Positions 43,588 through 64,000 of a stretch of 64,000 nt of DNA are shown here, piece after piece. This DNA is from Streptomyces zhaozhouensis (GTDB lineage Bacteria > Actinomycetota > Actinomycetes > Streptomycetales > Streptomycetaceae). The notes under the pieces were generated by a model that made no database searches, was not told the origin of the DNA, and worked only from the letters and a program-made list of their open reading frames with translations. The number at the start of each line of letters is the position of its first letter. Position 1 is the stretch's first letter. Position numbers and translations under genes: made by a program. The stretch covers positions 496,001 to 560,000 of the forward strand of contig NZ_OCNE01000002.1 of NCBI RefSeq assembly GCF_900230195.1. Direction: 5' to 3'.

Positions 43588-43627
43588 CGGGTAGCAGCCC
43601 TTTGGGTTCGGTCGGCCGGGGTCCGGA

Positions 43628-43656
43628 GGGGGCGCCCGCGCGCGGCGGACGCCCCC
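43628..43656 (-). promoter_or_regulatory. Stem-loop between binding-protein and permease genes, cluster 1
   Basis: GGGGGCG at 43628-43634 pairs with CGCCCCC at 43650-43656, enclosing a partly complementary 15-nt interior. It lies in the 82-bp gap after the binding-protein stop and may raise its expression relative to the permease. Confidence 0.45.
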
Positions 43657-43669
43657 GTCCTGACGACCG

Positions 43670-45490: not shown

Positions 45491-45514
45491 TGGTGCACCT
45501 GCCCGTTCGTAGTG

Positions 45515-46845: not shown

Positions 46846-47883
46846 CTAACCGGCCGTCACCTCCGGCTTCTGCCCGGCGAAGTGGCAGGCCGACGGATGG
46901 GCGACCGGCAGCCCCGCCTCCCGCAGATGGCCGGGAACGACCAACTCCGGGTCGACCTCGGCACACAGCGGCTGAGCCTTCCAGCAACGGGTCCGAAAAT
47001 GGCACCCGGAGGGGGGATTGGCCGGGGAAGGCACATCTCCGGCCAGAATGATGCGTTCCCTTCGTTCGCTGGCGACCGGATCGGGCACCGGAACCGCGGA
47101 GAGCAGCGCCTGCGTGTAGGGATGCGTCGGATACCGGTAGATTTCCTCCTCGGTTCCGATCTCCACCACACGCCCCAGATACATCACGCCCACACGGTCG
47201 GAGATATGGCGAACAATCGAGAGATCGTGTGCGATGAACATGTAGGAGAGGTTGAACTCGTTCTGGAGCCTTTCCATCAGGTTGATCACCTGCGCCTGCA
47301 CCGAGACGTCCAGTGCGGAGACCGGCTCGTCGGCCACGATGATCTCCGGGTTGAGCGCCAGCCCGCGCGCGATGCCGATGCGCTGCCGCTGACCGCCGGA
47401 GAACTGGTGCGGATAGCGGTTGATGTACTCGGGGTTGAGCCCCACCACGTCCAGCAGCTCCCGCACCCGCTTCCTGCGCTCCCCCTTCGGCGCCACCTCG
47501 GGATGGATCAGAAACGGCTCCCCGATGATGTCGCCCACGGTCATCCGGGGGTTGAGCGAGGTGTACGGGTCCTGGAAGACCATCTGGATGTTCCGCCGCA
47601 CCGCGCGCAGCGCCCGCCCGGAGAGCTTCGAGATGTCCTCGCCCTTGTACATGATGGCGCCCGAGGTCGGCCGCTCCAGGTTCATCAGCAGCTTGGCCAC
47701 CGTCGACTTGCCGCAGCCCGACTCCCCCACGACGCCGAGCGTCTCCCCGGGGTACAGGCGCAGGCTGACCCCGTCCACGGCCTTGACCGCGCCGATCTGC
47801 CGCCGGAAGAGGATGCCCTGGGTCAACGGGAAGTGCTTGACCAGGTCGCGCACTTCGAGGATGGGCTCACGCGGGTCACTCAC
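46846..47883 (-). CDS. Oligopeptide/dipeptide ABC importer ATPase, DppF-type (cluster 2)
   Basis: A 345-residue ATPase: [26 protein letters not shown], Walker [38 protein letters not shown]-terminal [11 protein letters not shown]. By eye it shares about 80-85% of residues with the cluster 3 counterpart at 53830, including long identical runs such as [20 protein letters not shown]. Its start overlaps the preceding ATPase gene by 8 bp. Last gene of the operon. Confidence 0.9.
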
Positions 47884-48853
47884 CCATCGTCTCCTTCCAG
47901 AAGTGACAGGCGCTGGCGCGCCCCGGGCCCACCTCGTACAGCGGCGGCACCGGGTCCTCGCGGCAGACGTCCCTGGCCAGCGGGCAGCGCGGGTGGTAGG
48001 GGCAACCGGACGGGATGCGCGCGAGGTTGGGCGGCAGGCCGCGGATCGCCCGCAGCTCGCCGCCCTTGTGGTCCAGGCGCGGGATCGACTCCAGCAGGCC
48101 CTTGGTGTACGGGTGCGCCGGACGCTTGTACAACTCGCGCACGGGGGCCGTCTCGATGATCCGGCCCGCGTACATCACGGCGATCTCGTCGGCGACCCCG
48201 GCGACCACGCCGAGATCGTGGGTGATCAGGATCAGTCCCATCTGATACTCACGCTGCAACTCGTCGAGCAGATCCATCACCTGGGCCTGCACGGTCACGT
48301 CCAGCGCGGTCGTCGGCTCGTCGGCGATGATCAGCTCGGGTTCGAGCGCCAGCGCCATGGCGATCATGATCCGCTGGCGCATCCCGCCGGAGAACTGGTG
48401 CGGGTAGTCGTCGACCCGCTCCTTGGCCGCCGGGATGCGCACCCGGTCCATCAGCTCGACGGCCCTGGCCCTGGCCTCCGCCCGGCTCGCGCCCCGGTGC
48501 ACCCGGAACATCTCGCCGAGCTGGTAGCCGACCGTCAGCACCGGGTTGAGCGCGGAGAGGGCGTCCTGGAAGATCATCGCGATCTTGTCGCCCCTGATCC
48601 GCCGCCGCTCCTCGGGGCGCATGGTCAGCAGGTCGCGGCCCTGGAAGAGGACCTCGCCGCCGGCGATCCGGCCCGGCGGGGAGTCGATGATCCCCATCAC
48701 CGCCTGCGCGGTCACGGACTTGCCGGAGCCCGACTCGCCCAGCACCGCGAGCGTCCGGCCGGCCTCGACGGTGTAGCTCACCCCGTTGACCGCCCGCACC
48801 AGGCCGTCCCTGGTCTCGAACTCCACGCGCAGGTCGCGCACTTCGAGCAGCAT
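47876..48853 (-). CDS. Oligopeptide/dipeptide ABC importer ATPase, DppD-type (cluster 2)
   Basis: A 325-residue ATPase with [39 protein letters not shown] and a Cys-rich C-terminus ([15 protein letters not shown]). By eye about 80% identical to the cluster 3 DppD-type protein. The ATG at 48853 ([12 protein letters not shown]) follows AAGGGAA; the frame extends to 48901 without a better start. The first 8 bp of dppF-type gene overlap its end. Confidence 0.9.
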
Positions 48854-48875
48854 CGCGTTCCCTTCCCTTCGTCCC

Positions 48876-49835
48876 TCAGCGGAGCCTGGGATCGAGGGCA
48901 TCGCGGACCGCGTCGCCCAGCATGATGAAGGCCAGCACCGCGACGCTCAGCGCGGCGGCCGGGTAGAGCAGGATGTGCGGCGCGTTGCGGAACTGCATCC
49001 CGTCCGAGGCCGCCGAGATGTCCACGCCCCAGGAGACCGTGGGCGGCCGCAGCCCGACGCCGAGGAAGCTCAGGGTGGCCTCCAGCGCGATGAAGGTGCC
49101 GAGCACGATGGTGGCCATCACGATGACCGGGGCGATCGCGTTGGGCATGATGTGCCGCAGCAGCAGCCGGGTGTTGCCGGCGCCCAGCGCGCGGGCCGCC
49201 TGGACGTAGTCGTTCTGCTTGGCGGTGATCACCGCGCCGCGCGCGATGCGGGCGATCGGCGGCCAGCCGAGCGCGGTGATCACCAGCACCACCGGCCAGA
49301 TCCCGCGCAGCGTGATCATGCTCAGGAAGACGATGGCCCCCAGCACCATCGGGATCCCGAAGAACACGTCGGTGACCCGGGAGAGCAGGGTGTCCCAGAA
49401 GCCGCCGAAGAAGCCGGCGAGGCCGCCGACCACCGCGCCCAGCAGCGCGACCCCGAGCGTGGCGCAGACACCGACCGCGATCGAGGCGCGCGCCCCGTAG
49501 ACCGTGCGGGTGTAGACGTCGCAGCCCTGGGTGTCGAAGCCGAACCAGTGCCCGGCGCTCGGCCCTTCGAGGGAACGCCCCAGCTCGCAGTGGACGGGGC
49601 TGCGTGAGGCGATCAGCGAGGGCCACAGCGAGATCAGCACCAGGAAGAGGATCAGCAGCGCGGAGACCACGAAGATCGGGTTTCGCCGCAGGTCGTGCCA
49701 GGCGTCCGACCACAGCCCGCGCGGCGCGCCCTCCACCTCCTCGGCGGTGCCGACGGTCAGCGCGTCGGCGCTCGCCCTCTGCTGGGCCCCCAGCGGGTCC
49801 GAACGGTCGGAACGGTCGGAACGGCGGTCAGGCAT
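48876..49835 (-). CDS. Oligopeptide ABC importer permease, DppC-type (cluster 2)
   Basis: A 319-residue permease: an Arg/Asp/Ser-rich N-terminus (DRRSDRSDRSD, from a 9-bp repeat in the DNA), then LWSDAWHDLRRNPIFVVSALLILFLVLISLW, and the EAA loop RALGAGNTRLLLRHIMPNAIAPVIVM. The segment GLWSDAWHDLRR(N/K)P is shared with the cluster 3 counterpart. Its ATG lies inside the end of the DppB-type gene (8-bp overlap). Confidence 0.9.
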   Translation of the reverse strand: MPDRRSDRSDRSDPLGAQQRASADALTVGTAEEVEGAPRGLWSDAWHDLRRNPIFVVSALLILFLVLISLWPSLIASRSPVHCELGRSLEGPSAGHWFGFDTQGCDVYTRTVYGARASIAVGVCATLGVALLGAVVGGLAGFFGGFWDTLLSRVTDVFFGIPMVLGAIVFLSMITLRGIWPVVLVITALGWPPIARIARGAVITAKQNDYVQAARALGAGNTRLLLRHIMPNAIAPVIVMATIVLGTFIALEATLSFLGVGLRPPTVSWGVDISAASDGMQFRNAPHILLYPAAALSVAVLAFIMLGDAVRDALDPRLR

Positions 49836-50751
49836 AGCGAATCCTCGGGTCGAGCACGGCGTAGAGCAGGTCAACCAGCAGGTTGGCGAGGAGGAAGATC
49901 AGCACCAGCACCACCACGAAGCCGACCACCGTGGGCGAGTTCTGCCGCAGGATGCCCTGGAAGAGCTGGTAGCCGACGCCCTGGATGTTGAAGATCCGCT
50001 CGGTCACGATGGCGCCGGCCATCAGGTTGCCGATGTCGGCGCCGAGGTAGGTGACCACCGGGATCAGCGAGTTGCGCAGCAGGTGCCGCACGGTCACCCG
50101 CCGCCTCGGCAGGCCCTTGGCGACGGCGGTGCGCACGTAGTCGGCGCGGACGTTCTCCGCCACCGAGGTCCTGGTCAGCCGGGTGACGTAGGCGAGCGAG
50201 ACCAGCGAGAGGATCAGCCCCGGCACGATCAGCTCGTCCAGCCGCCCCTCGGGGCTGACGGCCGGGTCGATCCAGCCGAACTCGACGCCCAGGAAGAACT
50301 GGAGCGTGGTGCCGAGCACGAAGGTGGGGATGGCGATCACCACCAGCGTCAGGACCAGCACCGAGGTGTCCAGCGACCGGCCGCGGCGCAGCCCGGTGAT
50401 CACACCGAGGGTGATGCCGAACAGGATCTCGAAGAACAGGGCCACCAGCATCAGCCGCGCGCTGATCGGGAAGGCCCGGCCCATCAGGTCGGTCACCGGC
50501 TCCCCGTTGAACGCCGTCCCGAAGTCGCCGGTGAAGATCTTCCCCATGTACAGCAGGTACTGCTGCCAGACGGGCTTGTCGAGGTTGAACTGCTCGCGCA
50601 GCGCGGCGGCGGTCGCCGGGTCGGGGCCCCGTTCGCCGAAGAGCGCGGTGACGGGGTCGCCGAGGGCGTAGACCATCAGGAAGATCAGGAAGGTGGCGCC
50701 GACGAAGACCGGGATCATCTGGAGCAGGCGCCGGATGACGTAACGTCCCAT
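49828..50751 (-). CDS. Oligopeptide ABC importer permease, DppB-type (cluster 2)
   Basis: A 307-residue permease starting MGRYVIRRLLQMIPVFVGATFLIFLMVYALGDP, with EAA loop LPRRRVTVRHLLRNSLIPVVTYLGADIGNLMAGAI. The start MGRYV(I/V)RRLLQMIPVF is nearly identical in cluster 3 (57815). The final residues overlap the next gene. Confidence 0.9.
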   Translation of the reverse strand: MGRYVIRRLLQMIPVFVGATFLIFLMVYALGDPVTALFGERGPDPATAAALREQFNLDKPVWQQYLLYMGKIFTGDFGTAFNGEPVTDLMGRAFPISARLMLVALFFEILFGITLGVITGLRRGRSLDTSVLVLTLVVIAIPTFVLGTTLQFFLGVEFGWIDPAVSPEGRLDELIVPGLILSLVSLAYVTRLTRTSVAENVRADYVRTAVAKGLPRRRVTVRHLLRNSLIPVVTYLGADIGNLMAGAIVTERIFNIQGVGYQLFQGILRQNSPTVVGFVVVLVLIFLLANLLVDLLYAVLDPRIRYA

Positions 50752-50795
50752 GGGTCCTCCGGTGGGGAGCGGCGCGGCGGGCTTGGGTCAGCCGG

Positions 50796-52433
50796 TCAGG
50801 AGACGGTGATCTCGGTGAAGACCGGGACGGAGAACGGGTTGAGCCGCACGTCGCTCACCCGCTCGGAGAAGCCGGCGGTGCCGTTCTGGTACCAGAGGGG
50901 GATCGCGGGCATGTCGTCGACGAGGACCTGCTCGGCCTCCTTGAAGAGGCGTACGGAGTCCTCCTCGTTGTCCGCCGAGTTGGCCTGGTCGACCAGGTCG
51001 TCGAACTCCTCGCTGCTGTAGCCGCCGTCGTTGGACGAGGCGTCGGTGTAGTACAGCGGCTGGAGGAAGTTCTGGATCAGCGGGTAGTCCATCTGCCAGC
51101 CGGCGCGGAACATGCCGGTCATCTCCCGGCCGGTGATCTGGTTGCGGAAGTCGGCGAAGGTGGGCACCGGGTTGACGGTGCAGGCGTTCTCCTGCTCCAG
51201 CGCGTTGTTGACGCTGTTGCAGACCGCGTCCAGCCACTGGCGGTGGGAGCCGGTGTCCACGTTGGAGGAGAGCGTCACCCGGCCGCCGGGGAGGCCGCCG
51301 GCCTCCTCGATCAGCTGGCGGGCGCGCTCGGGGTCGTACTCGCAGACCTCGCCGCACAGCCCTTCCTGGAAGCCGCCGTCCTCGCCGAGCACGGGCGAGG
51401 TGAAGTCGCTGGCGGGGGTGCGGGTGCCGGAGAAGATCCGCTCGGTGATCTGCTCGCGGTTGATCGCCATGGAGATGCCCTGGCGGAGCTTGACGCCGTC
51501 CTCGCCCGACCAGGCGTCGTCGTAGAGCGGGAAGACGACCGTCTGGATGATGCCGGCCGGCTGGTTGATGTAGCGGTCGCCGAGGTCGGACTCGGCGTTC
51601 TTGAGCTGGGAGGCGGGCACGTCGTCGATGACGTCGAGGTTGCCGGCCTGGAGGTCGGTGTAGGCCGTGTTGTTGTCGGTGTAGACGCGCAGGTCGACGC
51701 CGTCGTTCTTCGCCTTGTCCGGGCCGGCGTAGTCCTCGTTGCGCACCAGTCGCATGGACTGGCTGCGCTGGTAGGAGTCGATCTGGTACGGGCCGTTGCC
51801 GATCGGCTTGGCCAGCCAGCCCTCGTGGTCGTCGAAGAACGCCTGCGGCAGCGGGGCGTAGGCGGCGTAGCCCAGGGTCTCCGGCCACAGCGCGAACGGC
51901 TCGGTGAGCCGGACGGTGAAGGTGTGCGTGCCGGTGACCTCCAGGCCGCTGAGGGTGTCCGCGGTGGCCTGGGCGCCCTCCTCCTCGGGGTGGACCTCGT
52001 CGTAGCCCTCGATGAACTGGAAGAAGTAGCTGGCGATCTGGGCGTTGTCCAGGTGGGCGCCGTAGTTCCAGGCGTCGACGTAGGAGTCGGCGGTGACCTC
52101 GGTGCCGTCCTGGAAGGTCCAGCCCTCCTTGAGGGTGACCGTGAAGTTCTGCTGGTCGTCCGTCTCGATCGACTCGGCCATCATGTCCTCGGCCTCGCCG
52201 GTCTCCGGGTTGTAGCGCTTGAGGCCCCGGAAGATCATGTCGAGCACCTTGCCGCCCTGCACCTCGTTGGTGTTGGCCGGCTCCAACGGGTGCTGCGGGT
52301 CGCCCCACGAGGCGCGGACCATCCCGGAGCCGCCGCCGCTGCCACCCGAGCCGCCTCCGCCGCAGCCGGAGGCGAGCAGCGCCAGTGCGGTGACGCCGAC
52401 CAGGGTCGGGGCCAGTCGGGTGCCGGCGATCAT
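50796..52433 (-). CDS. Oligopeptide-binding lipoprotein (cluster 2)
   Basis: A 545-residue SBP_bac_5 protein. Lipobox LLASGC puts the lipidated Cys at residue 24, followed by a Gly/Ser-rich linker. The ligand domain has RASWGDPQHPLEPANTNEVQGGKVLD, FTVTLKEGWTFQDGTEVTADSYVDAWNYGA, NGPYQIDSYQRSQSMRLVRNEDY and DMPAIPLWYQNGTAGFSERVSDV. Cys at DAVCNSVNN, ENACTV and LCGEVCEY may form disulfides. The ATG has AGGAGG upstream. The gap to the permease is only 44 bp and has no hairpin. Confidence 0.9.
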   Translation of the reverse strand: MIAGTRLAPTLVGVTALALLASGCGGGGSGGSGGGSGMVRASWGDPQHPLEPANTNEVQGGKVLDMIFRGLKRYNPETGEAEDMMAESIETDDQQNFTVTLKEGWTFQDGTEVTADSYVDAWNYGAHLDNAQIASYFFQFIEGYDEVHPEEEGAQATADTLSGLEVTGTHTFTVRLTEPFALWPETLGYAAYAPLPQAFFDDHEGWLAKPIGNGPYQIDSYQRSQSMRLVRNEDYAGPDKAKNDGVDLRVYTDNNTAYTDLQAGNLDVIDDVPASQLKNAESDLGDRYINQPAGIIQTVVFPLYDDAWSGEDGVKLRQGISMAINREQITERIFSGTRTPASDFTSPVLGEDGGFQEGLCGEVCEYDPERARQLIEEAGGLPGGRVTLSSNVDTGSHRQWLDAVCNSVNNALEQENACTVNPVPTFADFRNQITGREMTGMFRAGWQMDYPLIQNFLQPLYYTDASSNDGGYSSEEFDDLVDQANSADNEEDSVRLFKEAEQVLVDDMPAIPLWYQNGTAGFSERVSDVRLNPFSVPVFTEITVS

Positions 52434-52504
52434 GGGCGCCTCCTGGGCGGGGGACGTCTGCCGGTGGAGGGGACCACTGGCAGGGAGCGGCCTGTGCATC
52501 CCTT

Positions 52505-52535
52505 ATATCCCTATTTACAGGAAATCGGACACTTG
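52505..52535 (-). promoter_or_regulatory. AT-rich promoter region of oligopeptide importer cluster 2
   Basis: On the minus strand GATTTCCTGTAAATAGGG then ATATAAGGG forms one of the most AT-rich stretches in the window, about 70-100 nt upstream of the binding-protein ATG. Several -10-like hexamers overlap (TAAATA, TATAAG), so the exact start point is not fixed. It is divergent from the leaderless lipoprotein gene. Confidence 0.4.
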
Positions 52536-52588
52536 TCGCTCCGGAGTGTTGCCCGAAAACCCCCATATGCCGGACCGGCCCGCTGCGT

Positions 52589-52594
52589 TATGGT
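52589..52594 (+). promoter_or_regulatory. -10 box TATGGT of a leaderless lipoprotein gene
   Basis: TATGGT is followed by 6 nt and then the ATG at 52601, with no ribosome-binding site. Confidence 0.65.
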
Positions 52595-52600
52595 CTGGCC

Positions 52601-53815
52601 ATGCCTCGCAGGTCTCCTCTCCCGCAGGTCCTCGTCCTCACCGCACTGACGCTGCTGAGCTGCACCTCCGCCGAACAGGCGACCGACGACCCGGCCGCCT
52701 CCGGCACGCCCGGCGCCACCCCCGCGCCCGAGCCCTCGGCAGACCCCCCGCCGATCCCTTCCGAAACGCAACTTTCCGGCCAGGTCGCGCAGCTGAGCTT
52801 CGCCGGGCCCGACCACGCGGCGGCGCTGCTCGTCGAGTGCCTCCACGCCGCCACCCGGCACGAGGGCAACTGCTCCTACCGAGTGGCGGTGCTCGACGAG
52901 GACGGGTGGGTCACCCGCGACACCCCGCTGCCCACCACGCCCGCCGCCAACAGCCTCTTCACCGTGGAGGCCGTCGGCGAGCGCGGGGTGCGGGTCTCCT
53001 CGGGGCAGGAGGACTGGCTCTCCACCGACGGCGGCGCGCGCTGGCGGTCCGACAGCCCCAGCGCCGGCCCCGACGGGCGGACCGCCCGCGCGATCCCCGA
53101 GGGCGCGGTGCCGCGCCCGGCCGGGCAGGACCCCGACGAGCGCGCGCTGGAGGTGCTCTCCCCCGACGACGCCCGGCCCCGCCGGCTCGCCGGCCAGCCG
53201 CCGCTCACCGAGCTCGGCCGCCCGGGGCGGCTGCCCGAGGGCGGCTGGTGGGTGGCCGGGCTCGACCCGGAGACCGGGCAGCCCGACATCGCGATCACAC
53301 TGGACGCCGGCCGCGAGTGGGAGCGGCTGCGGCTTCTGGAGCGGGCGCCGGAGGCCGACCGGCGCTCGGTCAACTCGCTGGTCCTCGCCGCCGGGCCCGA
53401 GGACTGGTACGTACTGGCCAGCGGCAGCGCCACGTTGGAGCCCGGCAGCAGCTCCGCGCTGGCGACCACCCTGCTGGCGATCTACCGGGGCTCCGACGAC
53501 GGCACGGGCTGGGAGCGGGTCTGGTCACCCTCGGCGGGACCGGGACCGCACTCGCTGGTCGGCACGCCCATCGCGGCGGACGACGGCAGTCTCACCGTCT
53601 ACTCGTTCGACGCCATCTACCGCAGCGACGACCGGGGGCACACCTTCGAGGTGACCCGTCCCGGCGCGCCGCCGGAGCTGCCCGAGCTGACCCCGGCCGG
53701 CTATCTGCTGACCGACCTGAGCCAGCCGGGCCACTACCGGATCTCGACCGACGGCTTCACCTGGCGCACCGTGGTGCTGGGCCGGCCCGACGCGACGGTG
53801 CCGACCCAGCCCTGA
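52601..53815 (+). CDS. Secreted lipoprotein, probable beta-propeller (sialidase-like repeats)
   Basis: A 404-residue protein with lipobox TLLSC (Cys at residue 21) and a Pro/Ala/Ser-rich linker. The rest has repeated motifs such as STDGGARWRSDSP, LDAGREWERL, GSDDGTGWERV, RSDDRGHTFEV and STDGFTWRTVV, which match Asp-box/BNR-like blades (S/D-x-D-x-G-x-x-W). No catalytic sialidase residues are evident. It is the only plus-strand gene between 40 and 64 kb and separates two importer clusters; whether it serves them is unknown. Confidence 0.82.
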   Translation: MPRRSPLPQVLVLTALTLLSCTSAEQATDDPAASGTPGATPAPEPSADPPPIPSETQLSGQVAQLSFAGPDHAAALLVECLHAATRHEGNCSYRVAVLDEDGWVTRDTPLPTTPAANSLFTVEAVGERGVRVSSGQEDWLSTDGGARWRSDSPSAGPDGRTARAIPEGAVPRPAGQDPDERALEVLSPDDARPRRLAGQPPLTELGRPGRLPEGGWWVAGLDPETGQPDIAITLDAGREWERLRLLERAPEADRRSVNSLVLAAGPEDWYVLASGSATLEPGSSSALATTLLAIYRGSDDGTGWERVWSPSAGPGPHSLVGTPIAADDGSLTVYSFDAIYRSDDRGHTFEVTRPGAPPELPELTPAGYLLTDLSQPGHYRISTDGFTWRTVVLGRPDATVPTQP

Positions 53816-53829
53816 CCGGGGGACGCCCG

Positions 53830-54861
53830 TCAGGCGTGGACGACGTCCCGCTCCTCGGCGAAGTGGCACGCCGAGGGGTGGGCGACCCCGCCCTTGTCCT
53901 TGGCGAACCGCTCGGGAATCGCCAGCACCGGCACCTCCTGCGCGCACCGGTCCTCCGCCTTCCAGCAGCGGGTCCGGAAGCGGCAGCCCGACGGCGGGTT
54001 GGCCGGCGAGGGGACGTCCCCGGTGAGGATGATCCGCTCGCGGCTCTCCCGCACCTCCGGGTCCGGCTGCGGGACCGCCGACAGCAGCGCCTGGGTGTAC
54101 GGGTGCGTCGGGTGGTCGTAGATCTCCCCGTCGGTGCCCAGCTCGGCCAGCTTGCCGAGGTACATCACGCCGACCCGGTCGGAGATGTGACGCACGATCG
54201 ACAGGTCGTGGGCGATGAACACGTAGGAGAGGTCGAACTCGTCCTGGAGGCGCTCCATCAGGTTGATCACCTGGGCCTGCACCGAGACGTCCAGCGCGGA
54301 GACCGGCTCGTCGCAGATGATGATCTCGGGGTTGAGCGCCAGCCCGCGCGCGATGCCGATGCGCTGCCGCTGACCGCCGGAGAACTGGTGCGGATAGCGG
54401 TTGATGTACTCGGGGTTCAGCCCGACCACGTCCAGCAGCTCGCGCACCTTCTTGCGACGGTCGCCCTTGGGCGCCACGTCCGGGTGGATCTCGAACGGCT
54501 CCCCGATGATGTCGCCGACCGTCATCCTCGGGTTGAGCGAGGTGTAGGGGTCCTGGAAGACCATCTGGATGTTCCGCCGCACGGCCCGCAGGGCACGCCC
54601 GGAGAGCTTCGAGATGTCCTCGCCCTTGTACTTGATCGTGCCCGAGGTCGGCTGCTCCAGGTTCATCAGCAGCTTGGCCACGGTCGACTTGCCGCAGCCC
54701 GACTCGCCCACGATGCCCAGGGTCTCGCCCTGGTACAGCTCGAACGAGACGTCGTCCACGGCCTTGACCGCGCCGATCTGCCGCTTGAAGAGGATGCCCT
54801 GGGTCAACGGGAAGTGCTTGACCAGGTTGGCCACTTCGAGAATGGGTTCACGGTCAGCCAT
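53830..54861 (-). CDS. Oligopeptide/dipeptide ABC importer ATPase, DppF-type (cluster 3)
   Basis: A 343-residue ATPase: [26 protein letters not shown], Walker [38 protein letters not shown]-terminal [11 protein letters not shown]. It is nearly a copy of the cluster 2 protein; the Walker B neighbour is ICDEP rather than VADEP. It overlaps the upstream DppD-type gene by 8 bp. The stop is 14 bp from the convergent lipoprotein gene. Confidence 0.9.
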
Positions 54862-55888
54862 GGATCGTCTCCTTCCAGAAGTGGCAGGCGCTCGCCCGGC
54901 CGCCGATCGGGCCGCCGTCCTGCTCCAGCACCTCGGCCAGCGGCGGGGTGTCGGTGAAGCACACGTCCTGGGCCATCGGGCAGCGCGGGTTGAACGCGCA
55001 GCCCTGCGGGATGGCGGTGAGGCTGGGCGGCAGCCCCTGGATCGCGTACAGTTCCTTGCCCTTGTGGTCCAGGCGCGGGATCGACTCCAGCAGACCCTTG
55101 GTGTACGGGTGCGCCGGACGCTTGTACAGCTCGTGCACCGGGGCGTTCTCCACGATCCGGCCCGCGTACATCACCGCGATCTTGTCGGCGACGTCCGCGA
55201 CCACACCCAGGTCGTGGGTGATCAGGATCAGTCCCATCTCGAAGTCGCGCTGCAACTCCGCGAGCAGGTCCATCACCTGGGCCTGGACGGTCACGTCCAG
55301 CGCCGTGGTCGGCTCGTCCGCGATGATCACGTCCGGCTCCAGGGCCAGCGCCATCGCGATCATGATCCGCTGGCGCATACCGCCGGAGAACTGGTGCGGG
55401 TAGTCGTTGACCCGCTCCTTCGCCGCCGGGATGCGCACCCGGTCCATCAGCTCGACGGCCTTGGCCTTGGCGTCCTTGCGGCTCATGCCCCGGTGCACCC
55501 GGAACATCTCGCCGAGCTGGTAGCCGACCGACAGCACGGGGTTGAGCGCGGAGAGGGCGTCCTGGAAGATCATCGCGATCTTGTCGCCCCTGATCCGCTG
55601 CCGCTCCTCCTCGGACATCTTGAGCATGTCCTCGCCGCGGAACAGGATCTCGCCGCCGGTGATGCGGCCGGGGGGCATGTCCAGAATGCCCATGATGGTC
55701 TGCGCCGTCACGGACTTGCCGGAGCCGGACTCACCCAGGACCGCCAGGGTCTCCCCCGCGTCCACCGTGTAGCTGACCCCGTTGACCGCCTTGGCCGCAC
55801 CGTCCCGGGTGTGGAACTCGACGTGCAGGTCCCGGACTTCGAGCAGCGGAACGCCGGGGACCTCCGCCTTGGTCATCTCTATCGACAC
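54854..55888 (-). CDS. Oligopeptide/dipeptide ABC importer ATPase, DppD-type (cluster 3)
   Basis: About 344 residues: [43 protein letters not shown], and [15 protein letters not shown] at the C-terminus. The start GTG 55888 has GGGAG 8-9 nt upstream; another GTG at 55903 sits directly after the stop of the previous gene and has no ribosome site. Strong similarity to the cluster 2 DppD-type gene continues over the whole length. Confidence 0.9.
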
Positions 55889-55903
55889 GCGCGTATCTCC
55901 CAC

Positions 55904-56893
55904 TCAGCGCAGCTTGGGGTCGAGGGCGTCACGCACGGCGTCACCCAGCATCAGGAAGGACAGGATGGTGATGCTCAGCAGGATCGACGGGTAGAGCAGC
56001 ACGTGCGGCGCCACCCGGATCTGGTCCTGCGCCCTGTTGATGTCGCCACCCCAGGAGATCGCCGGGTCCGAGAGGCCGATGCCCAGGAAGGAGAGCACCG
56101 CCTCGGCCGTGATGTAGCCGCCGAGCGCGATCATCGCCACCACGATGACGGGGGCCGCCGCGTTGGGCAGCACATGGCGCAGCAGGATGCGCCCCGTGCC
56201 GGCGCCCAGCGAGCGCGCCGCCATCACGTAGTCCGACTGCTTGATCGCGATCACCGAGCCGCGCATCACCCTGGCGATCGTGGTCCAGCCGAGGAAGGCC
56301 AGGGCCATCGTCACCGTCCAGGTGGTCCTGGTGTCGAACGAGACCAGCACCACCATGGCGCCCAGCATGAAGGGGATGCCCATGAAGGTGTCGGTGATCC
56401 GGGAGAGCAGCGCGTCCAGCCAGCCGCCGAAGTAGCCGGCGAGCATCCCGACGATGCTGCCCAGCACCAGCACCAGCGCGGTCACCGAGACGCCGATGAC
56501 GATCGAGGCGCGGGTGCCGTAGATCATCCGGGCGTAGATGCTCTGGCCCTGCTGGTTGTACCCCAGCCACTCGGGCTGGAAGAAGTGCGTCAGCTCCGGC
56601 TTCTGGAGGTAGCTGGTGGTCAGGTCGCCGCTGCGCGGGCTGACGCTGGTGAAGAGACCCGGCCAGGCCGCCATGACCAGCAGCACCAGGATGATGCCGG
56701 CCGATATCAGGAACGACGGCTTGCGGCGCAGGTCGTGCCAGGCGTCCGACCAGAGGCTGCGCGGCTTGCCGGGGACCGGCCCCGACGCCGCCATCTCCGC
56801 CGGCTGCCCGCCCTCGGTCACCGCGACATCGGACTCGGGTGCCCCGGTGGCGCGCACGGCCTTGTTGACGTTGGTGGCTTCGGCTTCAGGCAT
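55904..56893 (-). CDS. Oligopeptide ABC importer permease, DppC-type (cluster 3)
   Basis: A 329-residue permease with a ~45-residue cytoplasmic N-terminus, then LWSDAWHDLRRKPSFLISAGIILVLLVMAAW and EAA loop SLGAGTGRILLRHVLPNAAAPVIVVA. The beginning overlaps the end of the DppB-type gene by 8 bp, exactly as in cluster 2. Confidence 0.9.
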   Translation of the reverse strand: MPEAEATNVNKAVRATGAPESDVAVTEGGQPAEMAASGPVPGKPRSLWSDAWHDLRRKPSFLISAGIILVLLVMAAWPGLFTSVSPRSGDLTTSYLQKPELTHFFQPEWLGYNQQGQSIYARMIYGTRASIVIGVSVTALVLVLGSIVGMLAGYFGGWLDALLSRITDTFMGIPFMLGAMVVLVSFDTRTTWTVTMALAFLGWTTIARVMRGSVIAIKQSDYVMAARSLGAGTGRILLRHVLPNAAAPVIVVAMIALGGYITAEAVLSFLGIGLSDPAISWGGDINRAQDQIRVAPHVLLYPSILLSITILSFLMLGDAVRDALDPKLR

Positions 56894-57815
56894 AGCGAAT
56901 CCTTGGGTCGAGGACCGCGTACAGCAGGTCGACGATCAACGTGACGACGAGATAGATCAGGATGATGAAGGAGACGATCCCCACCACCGTCGCGCCCTCG
57001 CGGGAGTTGAGCGCCGTGTAGACGGCCCGGCCGATACCGTGGATGTTGAAGATCCCCTCGGTGACGATGGCGCCCGCGAAGAGGTTGCCGAGGTCGACGC
57101 CGAGGAAGGTGATCACGGGGATCATCGAGTTCCGCAGCAGGTGCACCCGGACCGCGCGGGACGGGGAGAGTCCCTTGGCGCGCGCCGTCCGCATGTAGTC
57201 GGAGCGCCGGTTCTCCGCGACGGAGGTCCGCGTCAGCCGCGCCACGTAGGCCAGCGACAGCGAGGCCAACACGATGGCGGGAAGCAGCAGTTGGCCCCAG
57301 TTCTCGGAGTCCTGCACGTTGGGGCTGACCCATCCCCAGCGGACGCCGAAGTAGGTCTGGTAGAGGTAGCCGATCACGAAGACCGGGACCGAGGTCAGCA
57401 GCAGGGTGATGAACAGGATGACCCGGTCGGTCTTGCCCCCGGCGCGCAGACCGGCGGCGAGACCCATCGCGATGCCGATGCACGCGGTGAACAGGAACGC
57501 AAGCAGCGTGAGTCTGACGGTCGCGGGCAGCGCGTCCGTGATCACGTCGATGACTTCGCGTCTGCTGGCGATCTGGGTGCCGAAGTCCCCCTGGACCAGC
57601 CCGGTGAGGTAGTCCCAGTACTGCTTGAGGATCGGCTGGTCGAGCCCGAGATCCGCCTTCATGGCGGCCATCTGGGCCTCGTCGGGGGCGCGTTCGCCCC
57701 ACAGGGCTCTGATCGGGTCGCCGGGCAGGGCGTACATCATCATGAAGATGATGAACGTCGCCCCGATGAACACCGGAATCATCTGGAGCAGTCGCCGCAC
57801 GACATAGCGCCCCAT
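56886..57815 (-). CDS. Oligopeptide ABC importer permease, DppB-type (cluster 3)
   Basis: A 309-residue permease beginning MGRYVVRRLLQMIPVFIGATFIIFMMMYALPGDP, with EAA loop LSPSRAVRVHLLRNSMIPVITFLGVDLGNLFAGAI and about six membrane helices. It follows the binding-protein gene by 93 bp, in which a 17-bp stem-loop lies. Confidence 0.9.
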   Translation of the reverse strand: MGRYVVRRLLQMIPVFIGATFIIFMMMYALPGDPIRALWGERAPDEAQMAAMKADLGLDQPILKQYWDYLTGLVQGDFGTQIASRREVIDVITDALPATVRLTLLAFLFTACIGIAMGLAAGLRAGGKTDRVILFITLLLTSVPVFVIGYLYQTYFGVRWGWVSPNVQDSENWGQLLLPAIVLASLSLAYVARLTRTSVAENRRSDYMRTARAKGLSPSRAVRVHLLRNSMIPVITFLGVDLGNLFAGAIVTEGIFNIHGIGRAVYTALNSREGATVVGIVSFIILIYLVVTLIVDLLYAVLDPRIRYA

Positions 57816-57840
57816 GGTTCCTCCATCTAAGTCGGCGGGA

Positions 57841-57878
57841 CCGACGGGCCGCTCCGTGGTGACGGAGTGGCCCGTCGG
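57841..57878 (-). promoter_or_regulatory. 17-bp stem-loop between binding-protein and permease genes, cluster 3
   Basis: 57841-57857 pairs with 57862-57878 (17 bp, one G-U wobble; 4-nt loop GGTG). It lies 31 nt after the stop of the binding-protein gene and before the permease genes. Stem-loops at this point are known to stabilise the upstream mRNA or stop part of the transcripts so that binding protein exceeds transporter. Confidence 0.65.
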
Positions 57879-57908
57879 CCCCCTTGCGCTGCTGGTGCCG
57901 TGCTGGCC

Positions 57909-59531
57909 TTACTTGACCGTGATCTCGGTCAGCAACGGCTGGCCGGAGGTGTCGAAGGACACGTTCTCCACGTTGTTGGAGTAACCGGCGTTGATGTTCT
58001 GGAACCAGAGCGGGATGGCCGGCATGGTCTCCCAGAGGACCTGCTCGGCCTCCTGGTAGGCGGCGACGGTCTCCTCCAGGGAGGCGGCCTGGTTGCCCTC
58101 GTCGAACAGCTGGTCAACCTCTTCGTTGTCGAAGCGGCCGTAGTTGGTCGACGCGCGCGAGTGGTAGAGCTCGCTCATGAAGTTGACGTTCAGCGGGTAG
58201 TCGGCGAGCCAGCCACCGCGGTAGAAGCCCTCGACCTCGTTGGCGTCACGCGCCTCCAGGTCGGTGTCGAAGTCCGGCTTCACGTCCGAACGGCACTCGA
58301 TGTCGAGGTTCGCGATCAGGTTGTTGCAGACCGCGTCCACCCACTCCTGGTGGCCACCGTCGGCGTTGAACTGCACGACGACCTCGTTGTTCGGGACGCC
58401 GCCACCCTCCTCGACCAGCTCGCGCGCGCGCTCGGGGTCGTAGGTGGTGATGTCGCCGGAGGCGCCCTCCTGGTAGCCCAGCACGCCGGGAGGCGCGAAG
58501 CTGTCGGCCGGGGTGCGCGAGCCGTTCAGCACCGTGGAGGTGATGGTCTCCCGGTCGATGGCCATCGAGAGGCCCTGGAGCACCTTCGGGTCGACGTCGC
58601 CCCAGTCGCCGTACTTGACCGGCACGATGGTCTGGATGCCGTTGTACGGCTGGGTGACGGCGCGGTCGCCGAGGTCGGTCTCGTAGACCGGCAGGTCCTT
58701 CGGGTCGACCTGGCGGATGACGTCCAGGTTGTCCGAGAGGAGGTCCTGGTAGGCCGCGTCGAGACCGGTGTAGGCGATGATGTCGACGCCGCCGTTGACC
58801 GGCTTGTTCTCGCCCGCGTAGTCCTCGTAGGTCCGCAGCTTGATGGACTCGTTGTGGTTCCACTCCTCGAACGCGTACGGACCCTGGCCGATCGGCGCCT
58901 GGCTGAAGGCCTCGGGGTCGTCGTAGAAGCTGTCCGGGAGCGGGGTGAACGGCGTGTAGCCGAGCTTGTAGTCGAAGTACGAGACCGGGTTGGTCAGCTC
59001 GATCTCGAAGGTCAGGTCGTCCACGACGCTCAGACCGGACATCTCCTCGGCGGTGGGCTCCTCGCCCTCCTCCGGGTGGACGTCGGCGTAGCCGGCGATG
59101 TCGGCGAACCAGAAGCTGGTCGACTGGTTGTTGTCGATGTGGGCGGCCCAGTTCCACGCGTTCACGTAGTGCTGGGCGGTCACGTCGGTGCCGTCGTGGA
59201 AGGTCCAGCCCTCCTTGAGCTTCACCGTCCAGACGGAAGCGTCCTCGTTCGGCTCGACCGACTCGGCGGCGACCATGTAGATCTCGCCCTCGTCGTCGAA
59301 GTCGAGGAGCTTCGAGAACACGTTGTCCATCACCAGGGCGCCGTACTGCTCCGTGGTGTCCGACGGGATCAGCGGGTTCTGCGGCTCACCGCCGTCGACC
59401 CGGACTATGCCGGCCGAGTCCCCACCGGAGGCGTCGCCGCCCGAGTCGTCGCCGTCACTGCCGCAGGCGGTCGCGGCGAAGGCCACGACAATCGCACTGG
59501 CGACCCATTTGGCGCTACGCGCACCACGCAT
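57909..59531 (-). CDS. Oligopeptide-binding lipoprotein (cluster 3)
   Basis: A 540-residue SBP_bac_5 protein: lipobox AATAC with Cys at residue 23, Asp/Ser/Gly-rich linker, then VRVDGGEPQNPLIPSDTTEQYGALVMDNVF, WTVKLKEGWTFHDGTDVTAQHYVNAWNWAA, GPYAFEEWNHNESIKLRTYEDYAG, and WVDAVCNNLIANLDIECRSD with paired Cys. The segments LKEGWTF(Q/H)DGT and MPAIPLW(Y/F)QN are shared with cluster 2. AAGGAGG precedes the ATG. It is the first gene of its operon. Confidence 0.92.
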   Translation of the reverse strand: MRGARSAKWVASAIVVAFAATACGSDGDDSGGDASGGDSAGIVRVDGGEPQNPLIPSDTTEQYGALVMDNVFSKLLDFDDEGEIYMVAAESVEPNEDASVWTVKLKEGWTFHDGTDVTAQHYVNAWNWAAHIDNNQSTSFWFADIAGYADVHPEEGEEPTAEEMSGLSVVDDLTFEIELTNPVSYFDYKLGYTPFTPLPDSFYDDPEAFSQAPIGQGPYAFEEWNHNESIKLRTYEDYAGENKPVNGGVDIIAYTGLDAAYQDLLSDNLDVIRQVDPKDLPVYETDLGDRAVTQPYNGIQTIVPVKYGDWGDVDPKVLQGLSMAIDRETITSTVLNGSRTPADSFAPPGVLGYQEGASGDITTYDPERARELVEEGGGVPNNEVVVQFNADGGHQEWVDAVCNNLIANLDIECRSDVKPDFDTDLEARDANEVEGFYRGGWLADYPLNVNFMSELYHSRASTNYGRFDNEEVDQLFDEGNQAASLEETVAAYQEAEQVLWETMPAIPLWFQNINAGYSNNVENVSFDTSGQPLLTEITVK

Positions 59532-59740
59532 GGGCTTTGCCTCCTTGGGAGTCCACTGTCACTGCAAGAGAGAACCCCGGAGCGAGGACAAGGTCATCTA
59601 CCCGCGTCACACGCGTCCGGATCGCAATGCCCACAACTATTGGGCATAAAACCCGCGCTAACCACCGCTTCGCTATTTCATTTTGATGAAGATGAGGGGG
59701 AGCAAAGCCCCCAAAGCGGACATTCAGCCGATGCGGGCTC

Positions 59741-59794
59741 TCCGTTATCCGGACCGATGTGACGCAGGTCGCGCACCACACTCCGGATAACGGA
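59741..59794. repeat. Perfect 13-bp inverted repeat with 28-bp spacer
   Basis: TCCGTTATCCGGA at 59741-59753 and its exact complement TCCGGATAACGGA at 59782-59794. It lies ~210-260 bp upstream of the importer cluster 3 start codon. The arms could be two operator half-sites or an RNA stem. Confidence 0.7.
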
Positions 59795-59827
59795 CGAGCC
59801 ACCGCATAGCCCCCCACAAACGGGCTT

Positions 59828-59857
59828 GACATGACCAACGTAAAAGTTGGTCATGTC
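59828..59857 (-). terminator. Perfect 12-bp hairpin after typA
   Basis: GACATGACCAAC at 59828-59839 pairs perfectly with 59846-59857 around a 6-nt loop, 20 nt after the typA stop codon (minus strand). It has low GC for this genome and no T-run, so besides being the typA terminator it could be a protein-binding site. Confidence 0.6.
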
Positions 59858-59877
59858 GTCGAACGCCGCAGCTCAGC

Positions 59878-61746
59878 TCAGTTGCGCTTGGCCCTGGCGG
59901 TGGCGCGGGCGCGATCCCGCTGGTCCAGCACGACCTTGCGAATGCGCACCTCGCTCGGCGTGACCTCCACGCACTCGTCCTCGCGGCAGAACTCCAGCGA
60001 CTGCTCAAGCGACAGCCTGCGCGGCGGCACCAGGTTCTCCGTGGTGTCGGCCGCGGCCGCGCGCATATTGGTGAGCTTCTTCTCCTTCGTGATGTTCACG
60101 TCCATGTCGTCGGAACGGGAATTCTCACCGACGATCATGCCCTCGTACACTTCGGTACCCGGCTCGATGAAGATCACGCCGCGTTCCTGGAGATTCAACA
60201 TCGCGTAAGGGGTCGCCACTCCCGGACGGTCGGCCACCAGCGACCCGCTCTTGCGGGTGCGCAGCTCACCGGCCCACGGCTCGTGCCGCTCGAAGATGCT
60301 GTGCGCGATGCCGGTGCCCCGGGTCTCGGTCAGGAACTCCGTCCGGAACCCGATCAGTCCGCGCGACGGGACCAGGAACTCCATCCGCACCCAGCCGGAA
60401 CCGTGGTTGGTCATCGTCTCCATGCGGCCCCTGCGGCTGGCCATCAGCTGGGTGATGGCGCCCAGGTGCTCCTCGGGGGCGTCGACGGTCATCCGCTCCA
60501 CCGGCTCGTGCACCCGGCCGTCGATCTCCCTGGTGACCACCTCGGGCTTGCCGATGGTCAGCTCGAAGCCCTCGCGGCGCATCTGCTCCACCAGGATGGC
60601 CAGCGCCAACTCGCCTCGGCCCTGCACCTCCCAGGCGTCGGGGCGCTCGGTCGGCAGGACCCGGAGCGAGACGTTGCCGACCAGCTCGCGGTCGAGCCGG
60701 TCCTTGACCAGCCGGGCGGTGACCTTGTGGCCCTTGCCGCCCTTGCCCACCAGCGGGGAGTTGTTGGTGCCGATGGTCATGGAGATCGCCGGTTCGTCCA
60801 CGGTGATCAGCGGCAGCGGCTCGGGGTGCTCCGGGTCGGCCAGGGTCTCGCCGATCATGATGTCCGGGATGCCGGCCACCGCGCAGATGTCGCCCGGCCC
60901 GGCGACCTCGGCCGGCTTGCGGGTCAGCGCGTCGGTCATCAGCAGCTCGGTGATCCGCACGGTGGCCGCGCTGCCGTCCCGCTTCAGCCAGGCGACGGAC
61001 TGGCCCTTGCGCAGCTCGCCCTGCTTCACGCGGCAGAGCGCGATCCGGCCGAGGAAGTTGTCCGCGTCCAGGTTGGTGACGTGCGCCTGGAGCGGGGCGT
61101 CCTCCTCGAAGACCGGCGCCGGAACGGCCTGGAGCAGGGTGGTGAAGAACGGCTCCAGGCTGTCGCTGTCGGACGGCACCGTCCCGTCGGCCGGCTGGGT
61201 CAGCGAGGCGACGCCGTCCCTGGCGCAGGCGTAGACGATGGGGAACTCGATCTGCTCCTCGTCGGCGTCCAGGTCGAGGAAGAGGTCGTAGGTCTCGTTC
61301 AGCACCTCGGAGATCCGGGCGTCGGAACGGTCGGTCTTGTTGACGCAGAGCACCACGGGCAGCCGGGCCTGGAGCGCCTTGCGCAGCACGAAGCGGGTCT
61401 GCGGCAGCGGCCCCTCGGAGGCGTCCACCAGCAGCACCACGCCGTCCACCATGGACAGGCCGCGTTCCACCTCGCCGCCGAAGTCGGCGTGGCCCGGGGT
61501 GTCGATGATGTTGATCACCACCGGGTCGCCGCCGCCCTTGGGGTGGTAACGGACGGCGGTGTTCTTGGCGAGGATGGTGATGCCCTTCTCGCGCTCCAGG
61601 TCACCGGTGTCCATCACCCGGTCGTCCACCTGCTGGTGGGCGGCGAACGCCCCCGCCTGCCGGAGCATGGCATCCACCAGGGTGGTCTTGCCGTGGTCGA
61701 CGTGGGCGACGATGGCGACATTGCGAATGTCGTGACGCGTAGGCAT
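59878..61746 (-). CDS. typA: Translational GTPase TypA/BipA
   Basis: A 622-residue GTPase: [12 protein letters not shown] (G1), EREKGITI (G2), [15 protein letters not shown] (G3), VNKTDR (G4), then EF-G-like domains and the TypA-specific C-terminal domain ([47 protein letters not shown]). It binds ribosomes and assists large-subunit assembly and stress adaptation. ATG 61746 ([12 protein letters not shown]) is the usual start. The neighbour is an LpqW-like gene, as in mycobacteria. Confidence 0.96.
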
Positions 61747-62138
61747 GGCTGGGCAGTTCTCCCGGGTTCGTGGCTGGGGCGGCGCGGCAGACTGCGCCCC
61801 ACCCGGGTGTGTCCGCTGGGCCCCCAGACCCGCGCGCCGGGCAGACCGTGGCACCGGCCTCGGGTGCCATGGTACGGGGCGCGCGACGGGCCACGCGGCT
61901 CGCGGGGTGCCGGGGGGCGTGCGCGGGCGGCGCCGCGCCGCCGGTCATGGCCGGTTCCCGCAGGTCGGCGCGGGGCACGACGTGCGGGAACCGGAGTCGG
62001 GGGGCGCGGGGGCGGTCGGGGCTCGGCGCGGGGAGGTGGCGGAGGGGTTCGGCCCGATTTCGGCCGGGGTTGGGGCGGGGTTGGGGCGGGGTTCGGCTCG
62101 GGTCGGGGCGGCGGGGCGGGCTCAGCGACCGCGGGGGC
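61747..62138. other. Intergenic region upstream of typA
   Basis: 392 bp without a gene. It is extremely GC-rich with few AT positions. A minus-strand TACCAT at 61867-61872 is a possible -10 box for typA. A five-run G4 motif occupies 62066-62091 and the direct repeat GGTTGGGGCGGGG is part of it. Confidence 0.4.
62066..62091 (+). other. Five-run G-quadruplex motif
   Basis: Plus-strand runs of GGGG at 62066-62069, 62072-62075, 62077-62080, 62083-62086 and 62088-62091 are separated by loops of only 1-2 nt. This fits a very stable parallel G-quadruplex, on the strand opposite to the transcripts of typA and the LpqW-like gene. Confidence 0.7.
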
Positions 62139-64000
62139 TCAGCGGCGGAAGCCGATGTCCTGGAAGCGCGGGGTGGCGAGGCCGAAGGCGCCGACACCCG
62201 CCAGGTCCCGGTGGACGGCGACGAGTTGGGGCCGCTGGAAGAGGGGGAGCGAGCCGGCGGCGGCCCAGATCCTGGCGTCCGCGTCGTCGAGCAGCCGCCG
62301 GTACTCCTCCTCGTCGAGCGCGCCGGCCGCCCGGTCCAGCAGCTGGTCGATGTGGTCGGTGCCGACCCTCGCGTAGTTCTGCTCGACCAGCAGCTGGCCG
62401 CCGGGGAGCGAGACCGGCTTGGTGAACAGCGGTCTGGCGTCGACGGCGGGGTAGGCGGTCGCCGGCCAGGAGTGGAGGGCGAGGTCGAAGCGGCCGGAGG
62501 CGACGTGGCGTTCGAAGTACTCGTCGGCGGGCACCTCGCTGATCTCCGTGCCGATGCCGACGGTGGCCAGCATGGCCGCGATCCGGTGGCCGACCTGGCG
62601 CAGCGGCTCGGCGTCGGCGCCGTCGGGCATCACGAAGCGGAGGCTCAGCGGCTCGCCGTCCCTGGTGCGGACGGGCGCCCTGGCGGCCTCGCTCAGCGAT
62701 CCGGCCTCCCGGGCCGCCTCGTCGGCGACCCGCCGGGCCTCGGCGACGGCGTCGCTCTCCCCCGCCTCGCCGGCCTCCTCCGCCTCGCCGGCCTCGCCGG
62801 CCTCGTCGGCGGTGGGGAGCGGGGCGGTCATGGGGAGCGGGCCGGCGCCGGCGGGGGCCGGCGCGCCGTTGGCGCCGTCGGTCCCCTCCGCTTCCCCTTC
62901 TCCCCCCTCTTCCTCTTCCTCTTCCTCTTCCTCTTCCTCTTCCTCTTCCTCCGCGGCCGGCTCCGCGGCCGGCTCGGCCGGGGGCTCCGCGGCGGGCTCG
63001 GCGAGGACGCCGGCCGCCTGGGCCAGCAGGCCCGCGCGCTGGTGCGCGGCGGGAAGGCCGGGGCTCAACGGGGCGAGCGCGGCGGCGCGTGCGCCGGTCG
63101 CCTTGTCGTCGCTGGTCGCGTCGTCGGCCGGCAGCCGCCAGCCGGCCTCCTCCAGCAGCTCGGCCGCCCGCTCGGCGCCGGTCGCGCCGAGCGCGTCGCT
63201 GGTGTCCTCGTACCCGTGCTGGCCGACGACCCGCAGATGGCTGCCGAGCGGCGCGGTCGGCAGCCCGGCCGGCTCGTGGACCTGGCTGGCCAGTTTCTCG
63301 CGGTCGAGAGCGCGGGCGATGGCCCACCGCACCTGTTCGTCCTCCAGCGCCTCGGAGCTTCCGTTGAGGGTGAGCTGGGTGTAGCTCGGGTGGTAGGCAC
63401 GGTGCACGGTGAAGTCGCGCAACTGTTCGCGCAGGGCCTCCTCGCGGGTGGCGAAGGCGCGTTCCCTGGTCCGGTCGGCGCCGGCCACGGCCGCCGCGTA
63501 GCGCCGGGTGGCGTCCGCGCTCTCCCCGGTCCCGCCGAGCCGCGCGAGGGCGAGGTCGTGGAGGGCGTCCAGGGCGGGTGACGGGCCGGCGGGCGCGTTG
63601 AGCTCGCCCTCCCCGAGCCCCTCCCCCTTGCCGTCGTCCGCCCCCTCGCCGTCGTCCGCGCCCTCGACGGCGTCGGCCGCCTCGATGCGGGCCGCCTCCG
63701 CCGGGGCGACCTCCGCGATGTCGACCGAGCCCTCGCGCAGCGCGGCGGCACGTTCGTCCCGGTCGACGGCCCGCAGCACCAGCTCGTCGAGGAGGGCGCT
63801 CTCTCCCCACCACTCGGGGTTGCGCGCGAGGGTGACCGAACGTTCCTCCTGGTCCACCGACTGAACCGCGAAGGGGCCGGCGAAGAGCGGGAGTTCGGTC
63901 CGCGAGCCCTCGTTGAAGACCGCGGGGTCGCCGGTGACCTCGGCCGGGTAGAGCGGGCTGAAGAGCGCCCGCCACTCCGCGGTCGGGCGGGTGAAGACCA
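62139..64000 (-). CDS. LpqW-like SBP_bac_5 family protein (5' end outside window)
   Basis: The frame is open to the end of the window, giving ~620 C-terminal residues of a family 5 solute-binding protein: LARNPEWWGESALLDELVLRAVDRDERAAALREGSVDIAEV is the standard SBP_bac_5 centre, and the C-terminus has HIDQLLDRAAGALDEEEYRRLLDDADARIWAAAGSLPLFQRP. Beside typA this is the position of mycobacterial LpqW, which influences lipomannan/PIM synthesis and is not a transporter partner. No ABC genes are adjacent. A ~150-residue Ala/Glu insertion lies inside the domain, with ~15 consecutive Glu encoded by a hexanucleotide microsatellite at 62906-62951. Confidence 0.85.
   Translation of the reverse strand, partial: VFTRPTAEWRALFSPLYPAEVTGDPAVFNEGSRTELPLFAGPFAVQSVDQEERSVTLARNPEWWGESALLDELVLRAVDRDERAAALREGSVDIAEVAPAEAARIEAADAVEGADDGEGADDGKGEGLGEGELNAPAGPSPALDALHDLALARLGGTGESADATRRYAAAVAGADRTRERAFATREEALREQLRDFTVHRAYHPSYTQLTLNGSSEALEDEQVRWAIARALDREKLASQVHEPAGLPTAPLGSHLRVVGQHGYEDTSDALGATGAERAAELLEEAGWRLPADDATSDDKATGARAAALAPLSPGLPAAHQRAGLLAQAAGVLAEPAAEPPAEPAAEPAAEEEEEEEEEEEEEEEGGEGEAEGTDGANGAPAPAGAGPLPMTAPLPTADEAGEAGEAEEAGEAGESDAVAEARRVADEAAREAGSLSEAARAPVRTRDGEPLSLRFVMPDGADAEPLRQVGHRIAAMLATVGIGTEISEVPADEYFERHVASGRFDLALHSWPATAYPAVDARPLFTKPVSLPGGQLLVEQNYARVGTDHIDQLLDRAAGALDEEEYRRLLDDADARIWAAAGSLPLFQRPQLVAVHRDLAGVGAFGLATPRFQDIGFRR
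62906..62951 (-). repeat. Hexanucleotide microsatellite coding poly-Glu
   Basis: CCTCTT occurs seven times in perfect tandem from 62906 to 62947, followed by a partial copy to 62951. In the gene it reads GAA-GAG, giving a run of about 15 Glu. Confidence 0.9.

Follow-up and report, generated by a model that had tools for sequence, protein, structure and literature searches.

Why a single short gap between two genes should hold two perfect inverted repeats, and whether both serve the same end, is the question raised by a 64,000-nucleotide stretch of a Streptomyces zhaozhouensis contig (the window). The gap, at 59532-59877, separates typA from the gene for the binding protein of a peptide-type ATP-binding cassette (ABC) importer; it is 346 bp long with 58% G+C, against 73% for the window, and both flanking genes lie on the minus strand. 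Repeat 1 has 13-nt arms at 59741-59753 and 59782-59794, which are 100% complementary with a spacing of 28 nt, and repeat 2 has 12-nt arms at 59828-59839 and 59846-59857, also 100% complementary, with a spacing of 6 nt. A sequence-only reading had described two such repeats in an AT-richer gap upstream of the third importer cluster, and they were found exactly where it placed them, with the lengths and spacers it gave. They are two different things. We consider it quite probable that repeat 1 represents two of three operators, of the form GTYCG-N5-CGRAC, which lie upstream of the peptide importer promoter and which one dimeric transcription factor would occupy from roughly one side of the helix; that in Streptomyces the same factor probably governs genes for secreted proteases as well as further genes for the uptake of peptides and amino acids; and that repeat 2 would terminate typA transcription. 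Both the factor and its single identity across all of these sites are matters that we infer.

Under a first-order Markov model, two such repeats sharing one gap are beyond chance: a perfect repeat of at least 12 nt (spacer 3-60) arose in 0.11% of 20,000 first-order Markov copies of the gap, and two repeats in none of them. Since strong inverted repeats are over-represented across the window as a whole (13 such repeats against 1.65 expected from 60 Markov copies), conservation was taken as the real test. A search for further copies, which the sequence-only reading had proposed, located each exact word in the 6.53 Mb genome solely as these two arms, and the presence of the paired sequence in one genome copy is not what a mobile palindromic repeat would show. 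The host genome is that of a Streptomyces near S. sedi, the binding protein being 99% identical to a named S. sedi record.

The arms of repeat 1 are themselves composite. Each is a 13-mer of the form TCCG-N5-CGGA, a partial palindrome that is nearly its own reverse complement, and two copies of it therefore resemble one inverted repeat. A third, weaker copy lies at 59720, 33 bp beyond the second, so that the array consists of the following sites.

59782-59794, minus strand: site 1, the upstream arm of repeat 1, TCCG-TTATC-CGGA, aligned among relatives.
59741-59753, minus strand: site 2, the second arm of repeat 1, TCCG-GATAA-CGGA, aligned among relatives.
59708-59720, minus strand: site 3, degenerate in the window (TCCGCTTTGGGGG) and TTTGTCCGGATTT[CT]GG in most relatives aligned.

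The array spacing is 41 and 33-34 bp. In most other Streptomyces the same three places are filled at 41 and 34 bp by words such as TCCGGATATCGG, TCCGTTTCG and TTTGTCCGGATTTCGG. Site 2 is a full or nearly full dyad in the clade of the window; elsewhere among the Streptomyces aligned, most sequences show a GTCCGTTT half-site there.

How widely this arrangement is kept was assessed by searching for the binding protein in 295 genomes of the genus together with named contigs and extracting the upstream regions. A synteny filter (typA, then the binding-protein gene) was passed by 106 of 151 loci, among which are the window, two species represented twice (L003/L045 and L004/L046) and many related loci. 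The arms are unchanged in S. sedi (L003), L004 and L005. More broadly, 103 of the 106 syntenic Streptomyces gaps exceed the best of 318 mononucleotide shuffles, which never scored above 19.0. With the spacing set at 41 and 34 bp, 96 of the 106 gaps score at least 21.5; nine other spacings tried give 0-8, and the spacing of the window's own clade, 41 and 33 bp, gives 8. A BLASTN search with the whole gap had found matches in only 2 of 61 genomes, its own included, because the array consists of short words at fixed spacing, and synteny was used instead.

A model of the array built from sequence alone extends this pattern beyond the genus. It gives one strong match per genome in 32 of 37 genus genomes, including the window's own; the remaining matches in that search have expectation values (E) of 0.018 or weaker, except for a coding repeat in another family (L235), which was rejected as an operator array. 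At E 0.01 or better the model matches 97 of 121 genomes of the family, spread over 12 of 17 genera, with 10 of the 97 weaker than 1e-4; in 24 genomes outside the family it found nothing convincing. The array is thus conserved before orthologous genes beyond chance, and the absence of conservation in relatives that the sequence-only reading had set as its own refutation did not materialize for repeat 1. Its suggestion of paired operator sites is well supported by these comparisons, which add that each arm is a dyad in its own right, that there is a third site, and that most family genomes searched retain the array.

Conservation of a repeat could also reflect an RNA, with repeat 1 folding into a stable hairpin, either within a long leader or within RNA read through from typA, and the minus-strand fold of repeat 1 is a strong one (-44.4 kcal/mol, z -6.8). 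Alignment A1 includes six clade sequences, the window among them, whose arms are complementary at 10, 11 or 13 of 13 positions, and in the full 45-sequence alignment 66.7% of cells are paired, with paired cells, double changes and covariation score above all 500 shuffles. These shuffles, however, ignore relatedness, and a structure slid by one column matches the covariation score (0.098 against 0.096); we read the above-shuffle totals as kinship plus shared dyads. Arm pairing itself is not kept across relatives: outside the clade it falls to 5-8 of 13 in 39 sequences, and the five inner pairs are broken in 15-39 of the 45. Site 1 by itself remains a dyad more often: in 36 of the 39 non-clade sequences, 3-4 of its 4 outer pairs are self-complementary. 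Repeat 1 moreover sits upstream of a conserved -10-like hexamer, and a search of Rfam at a loose threshold returned one weak chance match, at 14 bits against a threshold of 100. A role as RNA is accordingly very unlikely. Nor is repeat 1 a simple terminator, a use that the sequence-only reading had also dismissed: its spacer is 28 nt, the terminator scan did not pick it up, and it is not a short-loop GC-rich hairpin followed by a T run.

A further distinction between DNA and RNA comes from the distance between sites 1 and 2, which was scored in 57 loci from ten sister genera (two of the loci, L217 and L236, being one genome). It is 40-42 bp in 39 of the 57 and 51-52 bp in 7, while 11 were mis-scored by the script and left uncounted. 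Both classes occur within one sister genus, g20, where 7 of 26 loci have 51-52 bp, 10 have 41-42 bp and 9 were not resolved by the script. The spacing of this multi-site element is thus conserved modulo a helical turn, and proteins bound along one face of the DNA would tolerate a shift of about one turn. Together with the poor arm pairing outside the clade, it argues for protein-bound DNA rather than an RNA hairpin.

The genes downstream indicate which of the two neighbors the array serves. In 15 of 15 further array loci read, the first recognized downstream gene is an ABC-importer gene, a count that leaves out L235 and L245, two weak model matches with no importer genes. The importer follows even where the binding protein is of the type found in the second cluster of the window or where a permease comes first, in an operon of the type of cluster 1 (L230, L232, L233). 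In L239, from genus g18, the array precedes an importer, and typA is about 7 kb off, with a different importer in between; the array thus goes with the importers rather than with typA. As an observation apart, in L230, L232 and L233 the array stands directly before the cluster-1-type operon (proteins 45-67% identical), as if the intervening clusters had been lost. In the window, the importer side comprises the following features.

57909-59531, minus strand: family-5 (peptide-type) solute-binding protein, first gene of the operon (Pfam SBP_bac_5).
53830-57815, minus strand: remaining operon genes, for two permeases and two ATPases, all of oligopeptide/dipeptide type (Pfam BPD_transp_1, OppC_N, ABC_tran, oligo_HPY).
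59636-59641, minus strand: AATAGT, candidate -10 hexamer of the importer operon, conserved as NATAGT, a putative promoter element.
59675-59690, minus strand: conserved box beside the array, TTCAT-N6-GAAAT, GTNAC-N6-GANAC-like in relatives and resembling a GlnR box.

Of 103 loci, 87 have the hexamer NATAGT at a distance of 79-80 bp on the 3' side of site 3, one more has it at 20 bp and 15 have none, counts made with no shuffled control. If AATAGT is a -10 box, sites 3, 2 and 1 would be centered near -85, -118 and -159. An array some 85-160 bp upstream of the predicted start, combined with a -35 region that is a poor match as judged by eye, makes an upstream activating or modulating region more likely than a simple blocking operator, since such a -35 match fits a promoter that depends on an activator. 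The sign of control cannot be read from sequence, however, and three dyads at near-helical spacing would also suit a repressor acting through looping, or one that blocks an upstream promoter; with the predicted position and the -35 region pointing the other way, repression is possible but somewhat doubtful.

Two other importer regions bear comparison. Upstream of the second importer cluster, compared between the window and 15 loci, a site-like word at 52518-52530 recurs only in the two closest, L183 and L184; L193 and L197 carry a different dyad-like word, GTCCGATATTCGG, and the remaining 13 of 15 second-cluster loci have no dyad by the pattern used. The three peptide-type importer clusters of the window are consecutive, at 42610-59531, beside typA. 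In the importer leader of other gaps (L066, L068 and L055 among them), about 39 nt before the start codon, there is a conserved stem, for example GGGGCACTG/CAGTGCCCC, whose arms differ in other species and still pair; it is present in many Streptomyces, not in the window's clade, and is possibly a regulatory element.

Another line of evidence for a shared factor is recurrence of the dyad elsewhere. Streptomyces feed by means of secreted proteases and peptide import, and peptide uptake is tied to development. In ten genomes the full dyad GTCCG-NWWWN-CGGAC occurs at 20 places, 11 of them inside the array. For five g20 genomes the share inside the array is 8 of 8 full dyads, and for the other five genomes it is 3 of 12, one of these three (G249) having been recognized from sequence and confirmed with the array model. 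Two of the dyads outside the array (G249 and G013) precede the same secreted serine protease (Pfam Pro_Al_protease, Trypsin; proteins 99% identical), and G294 has one more full dyad, in front of another family-5 binding protein. When 30 loci of the protease were read, 20 had GTYCG-N5-CGRA some 80-103 bp ahead of where the protein match begins, 2 had a partial form and 8 had neither; the central bases of the dyad vary. The pattern had been widened to GTYCG after the protease sites had been seen. In the stricter widened form, GTYCG-N5-CGRAC, it occurs at 57 places in 41 genus genomes, against 4 for the reversed control, and 10 of the 41 genomes have no match to it.

The setting of these places is informative. 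Of the 57, 30 were read, and 28 of the 30 are intergenic by a crude gene call, made with a home-made codon-bias caller that placed no gene on either side in L374, L390 and L397. Sixteen of the 30 adjoin protease or peptide/amino-acid import genes, a raw proportion uncorrected for background neighbor function. On the protease side, five are the same serine protease and one is a subtilase; on the uptake side are four amino-acid permeases, five binding proteins (two of family 5, two of Peripla_BP_6 type and one of family 3) and one NIL-domain ATPase, and the dyad at one of the two family-5 genes, L383, belongs to the array itself. The fifth protease locus (L374) was assigned by coordinates, as the gene caller had missed it; for L383 and L379 the assignment came from their similarity to proteins that had been scanned. 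The same motif thus stands before functionally related genes, though the genome of the window itself lacks the strict pattern. That the dyad keeps turning up ahead of protease and uptake genes suggests a regulon, so far undescribed. That GTYCG-N5-CGRAC is the operator of an uncharacterized global regulator, coupling secreted proteases to peptide and amino-acid uptake in the Streptomycetaceae and having the window's array as its most elaborate and most conserved target, is a tentative proposal with a little less than an even chance of being right. This regulon idea is the part worth pursuing: the motif, the candidate targets and the three-site array, which most of the searched genomes of the family retain, offer direct bait for finding the regulator, and the same bait would allow one to ask whether protein degradation and peptide import form one circuit.

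Single dyads before protease and uptake genes also bear on a quite different interpretation, in which the array is a structural element, a nucleoid or segregation site present once per chromosome and placed here by happenstance. The full array was found once per genome (two g27 genomes have a second match that is partial and weak, at 8.6e-4 and 3.7e-3), and the confinement of full dyads to the array in the g20 genomes would suit such an element. Against it stand the dyads elsewhere, the fixed distance to the -10-like hexamer and the importer found downstream at all 15 of the loci counted above, and it is extremely unlikely.

Two sets of dyads were observed besides. In L370, L385, L387 and L392 (1501-1515) an identical dyad, GTCCGAATATCGGAC, lies 13 bp before rplB, the gene for ribosomal protein L2 (assigned by Pfam on L370 and by similarity in the other three); it may be functional or a by-product of other constraints. 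In L388 and L391 (1501-1515), dyads with different centers lie 411 and 410 bp from a Peripla_BP_6 gene of branched-chain amino-acid type.

Several findings weigh against three operators for one factor with targets beyond the importer. The loci are related, so that the counts above are not independent. A strong array is missing from 5 of 37 genus genomes, and in at least G035 (L246) and G111 (L244) the operon is kept while the array match is weak or absent. Within site 1, positions 3 and 13 show no covariation (TA in 2 of 103, about 1 expected). No regulator gene was recognized near the array, by crude gene calls with most neighbors not scanned for family. Matches to the stricter dyad pattern are absent from the genome of the window, whose five TCCGNWWWNCGGA places are the two arms, two positions within genes and one about 70 bp before a tRNA-Leu gene; across six clade genomes, 7 of 28 TCCGNWWWNCGGA places fall in the array. 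Finally, 14 of the 30 dyad loci read have other neighbors, four being ribosomal protein L2 and ten other or not clear, again as raw counts.

Repeat 2 presents a different case, lying directly after typA.

59878-61854, minus strand: typA/bipA, the upstream neighbor (Pfam BipA_C, GTP_EFTU).
59828-59857, minus strand: repeat 2, a 12-bp hairpin and probable typA terminator, 20 nt after the typA stop codon.

The sequence-only reading had left it as either a typA terminator or an operator, and comparison favors the former over the latter. A hairpin with a score of at least 10 is present within 130 nt of the typA end in 85 of 106 gaps, against 14 of 530 shuffles, and the sequences vary, so that a strong hairpin soon after the stop codon is kept in position rather than in sequence. 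Of the clade loci tested, S. sedi alone preserves repeat 2 as such, its stem retaining all 12 pairs, one as G-U, and 5 of 6 other clade loci tested score below 10 after typA. No T run follows repeat 2. In Streptomyces, factor-independent terminators without a T tract are known, and the T run is often missing; repeat 2 resembles these in being a hairpin 20 nt after a stop codon, in a position kept in many relatives, and differs from the GC-rich stems of most relatives in its lower G+C of 43%. A perfect 12-bp repeat with no T run behind it, not kept in L004, L005 and L047-L049, could instead be an operator, but its place directly after typA, the varied hairpins at that place in relatives and the lack of its exact word anywhere else in the genome make this unlikely. 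Repeat 2 is most likely the typA terminator.

Known regulators offer partial parallels to the array. Table 2 of PMC10704036 gives the Streptomyces GlnR box consensus as gTnAc-n6-GaAAc. GlnR boxes are like the array in providing multi-site control upstream of nutrient uptake genes, and beyond site 3, at 17-18 nt on its 3' side, comes a stretch that resembles a GlnR box; they are unlike it in that the array motif GTYCG-N5-CGRAC differs in sequence and is an inverted repeat. The array sites as aligned, read by eye, are GTCCG-N5-CGG-like and do not fit the GlnR box. The stretch 3' of site 3 is the box at 59675-59690, between the array and the putative promoter, which is GlnR/MtrA-like and kept in relatives: all 103 of 103 loci have a best match of 6-9 of 9 positions (6 of 9 in the window), a level that 20 of 103 shuffles reach.

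For the importer operon itself, we take SCO5476-SCO5480 of S. coelicolor to be the ortholog. The DasR site (ACTGGTCTAGACCAnT) looks unlike the array dyad. PMC4398421 reports strong up-regulation, in a dasR mutant of S. coelicolor, of SCO2008-SCO2012 (a branched-chain amino-acid transporter) and of some SCO5476-SCO5480 genes (an oligopeptide transporter), and the DasR regulon thus includes the kinds of target seen here. PMC13011467 reports that SCO5476-SCO5480 is partly down-regulated under salt. Among the open-licence papers searched, no description was found of a shared operator or regulator, or of the motif, for these genes.

Upstream of typA, at 62139-63857, the window holds another gene that resembles those of family-5 binding proteins, the second of this kind, and its product includes 15 glutamates in a row, which is unusual.
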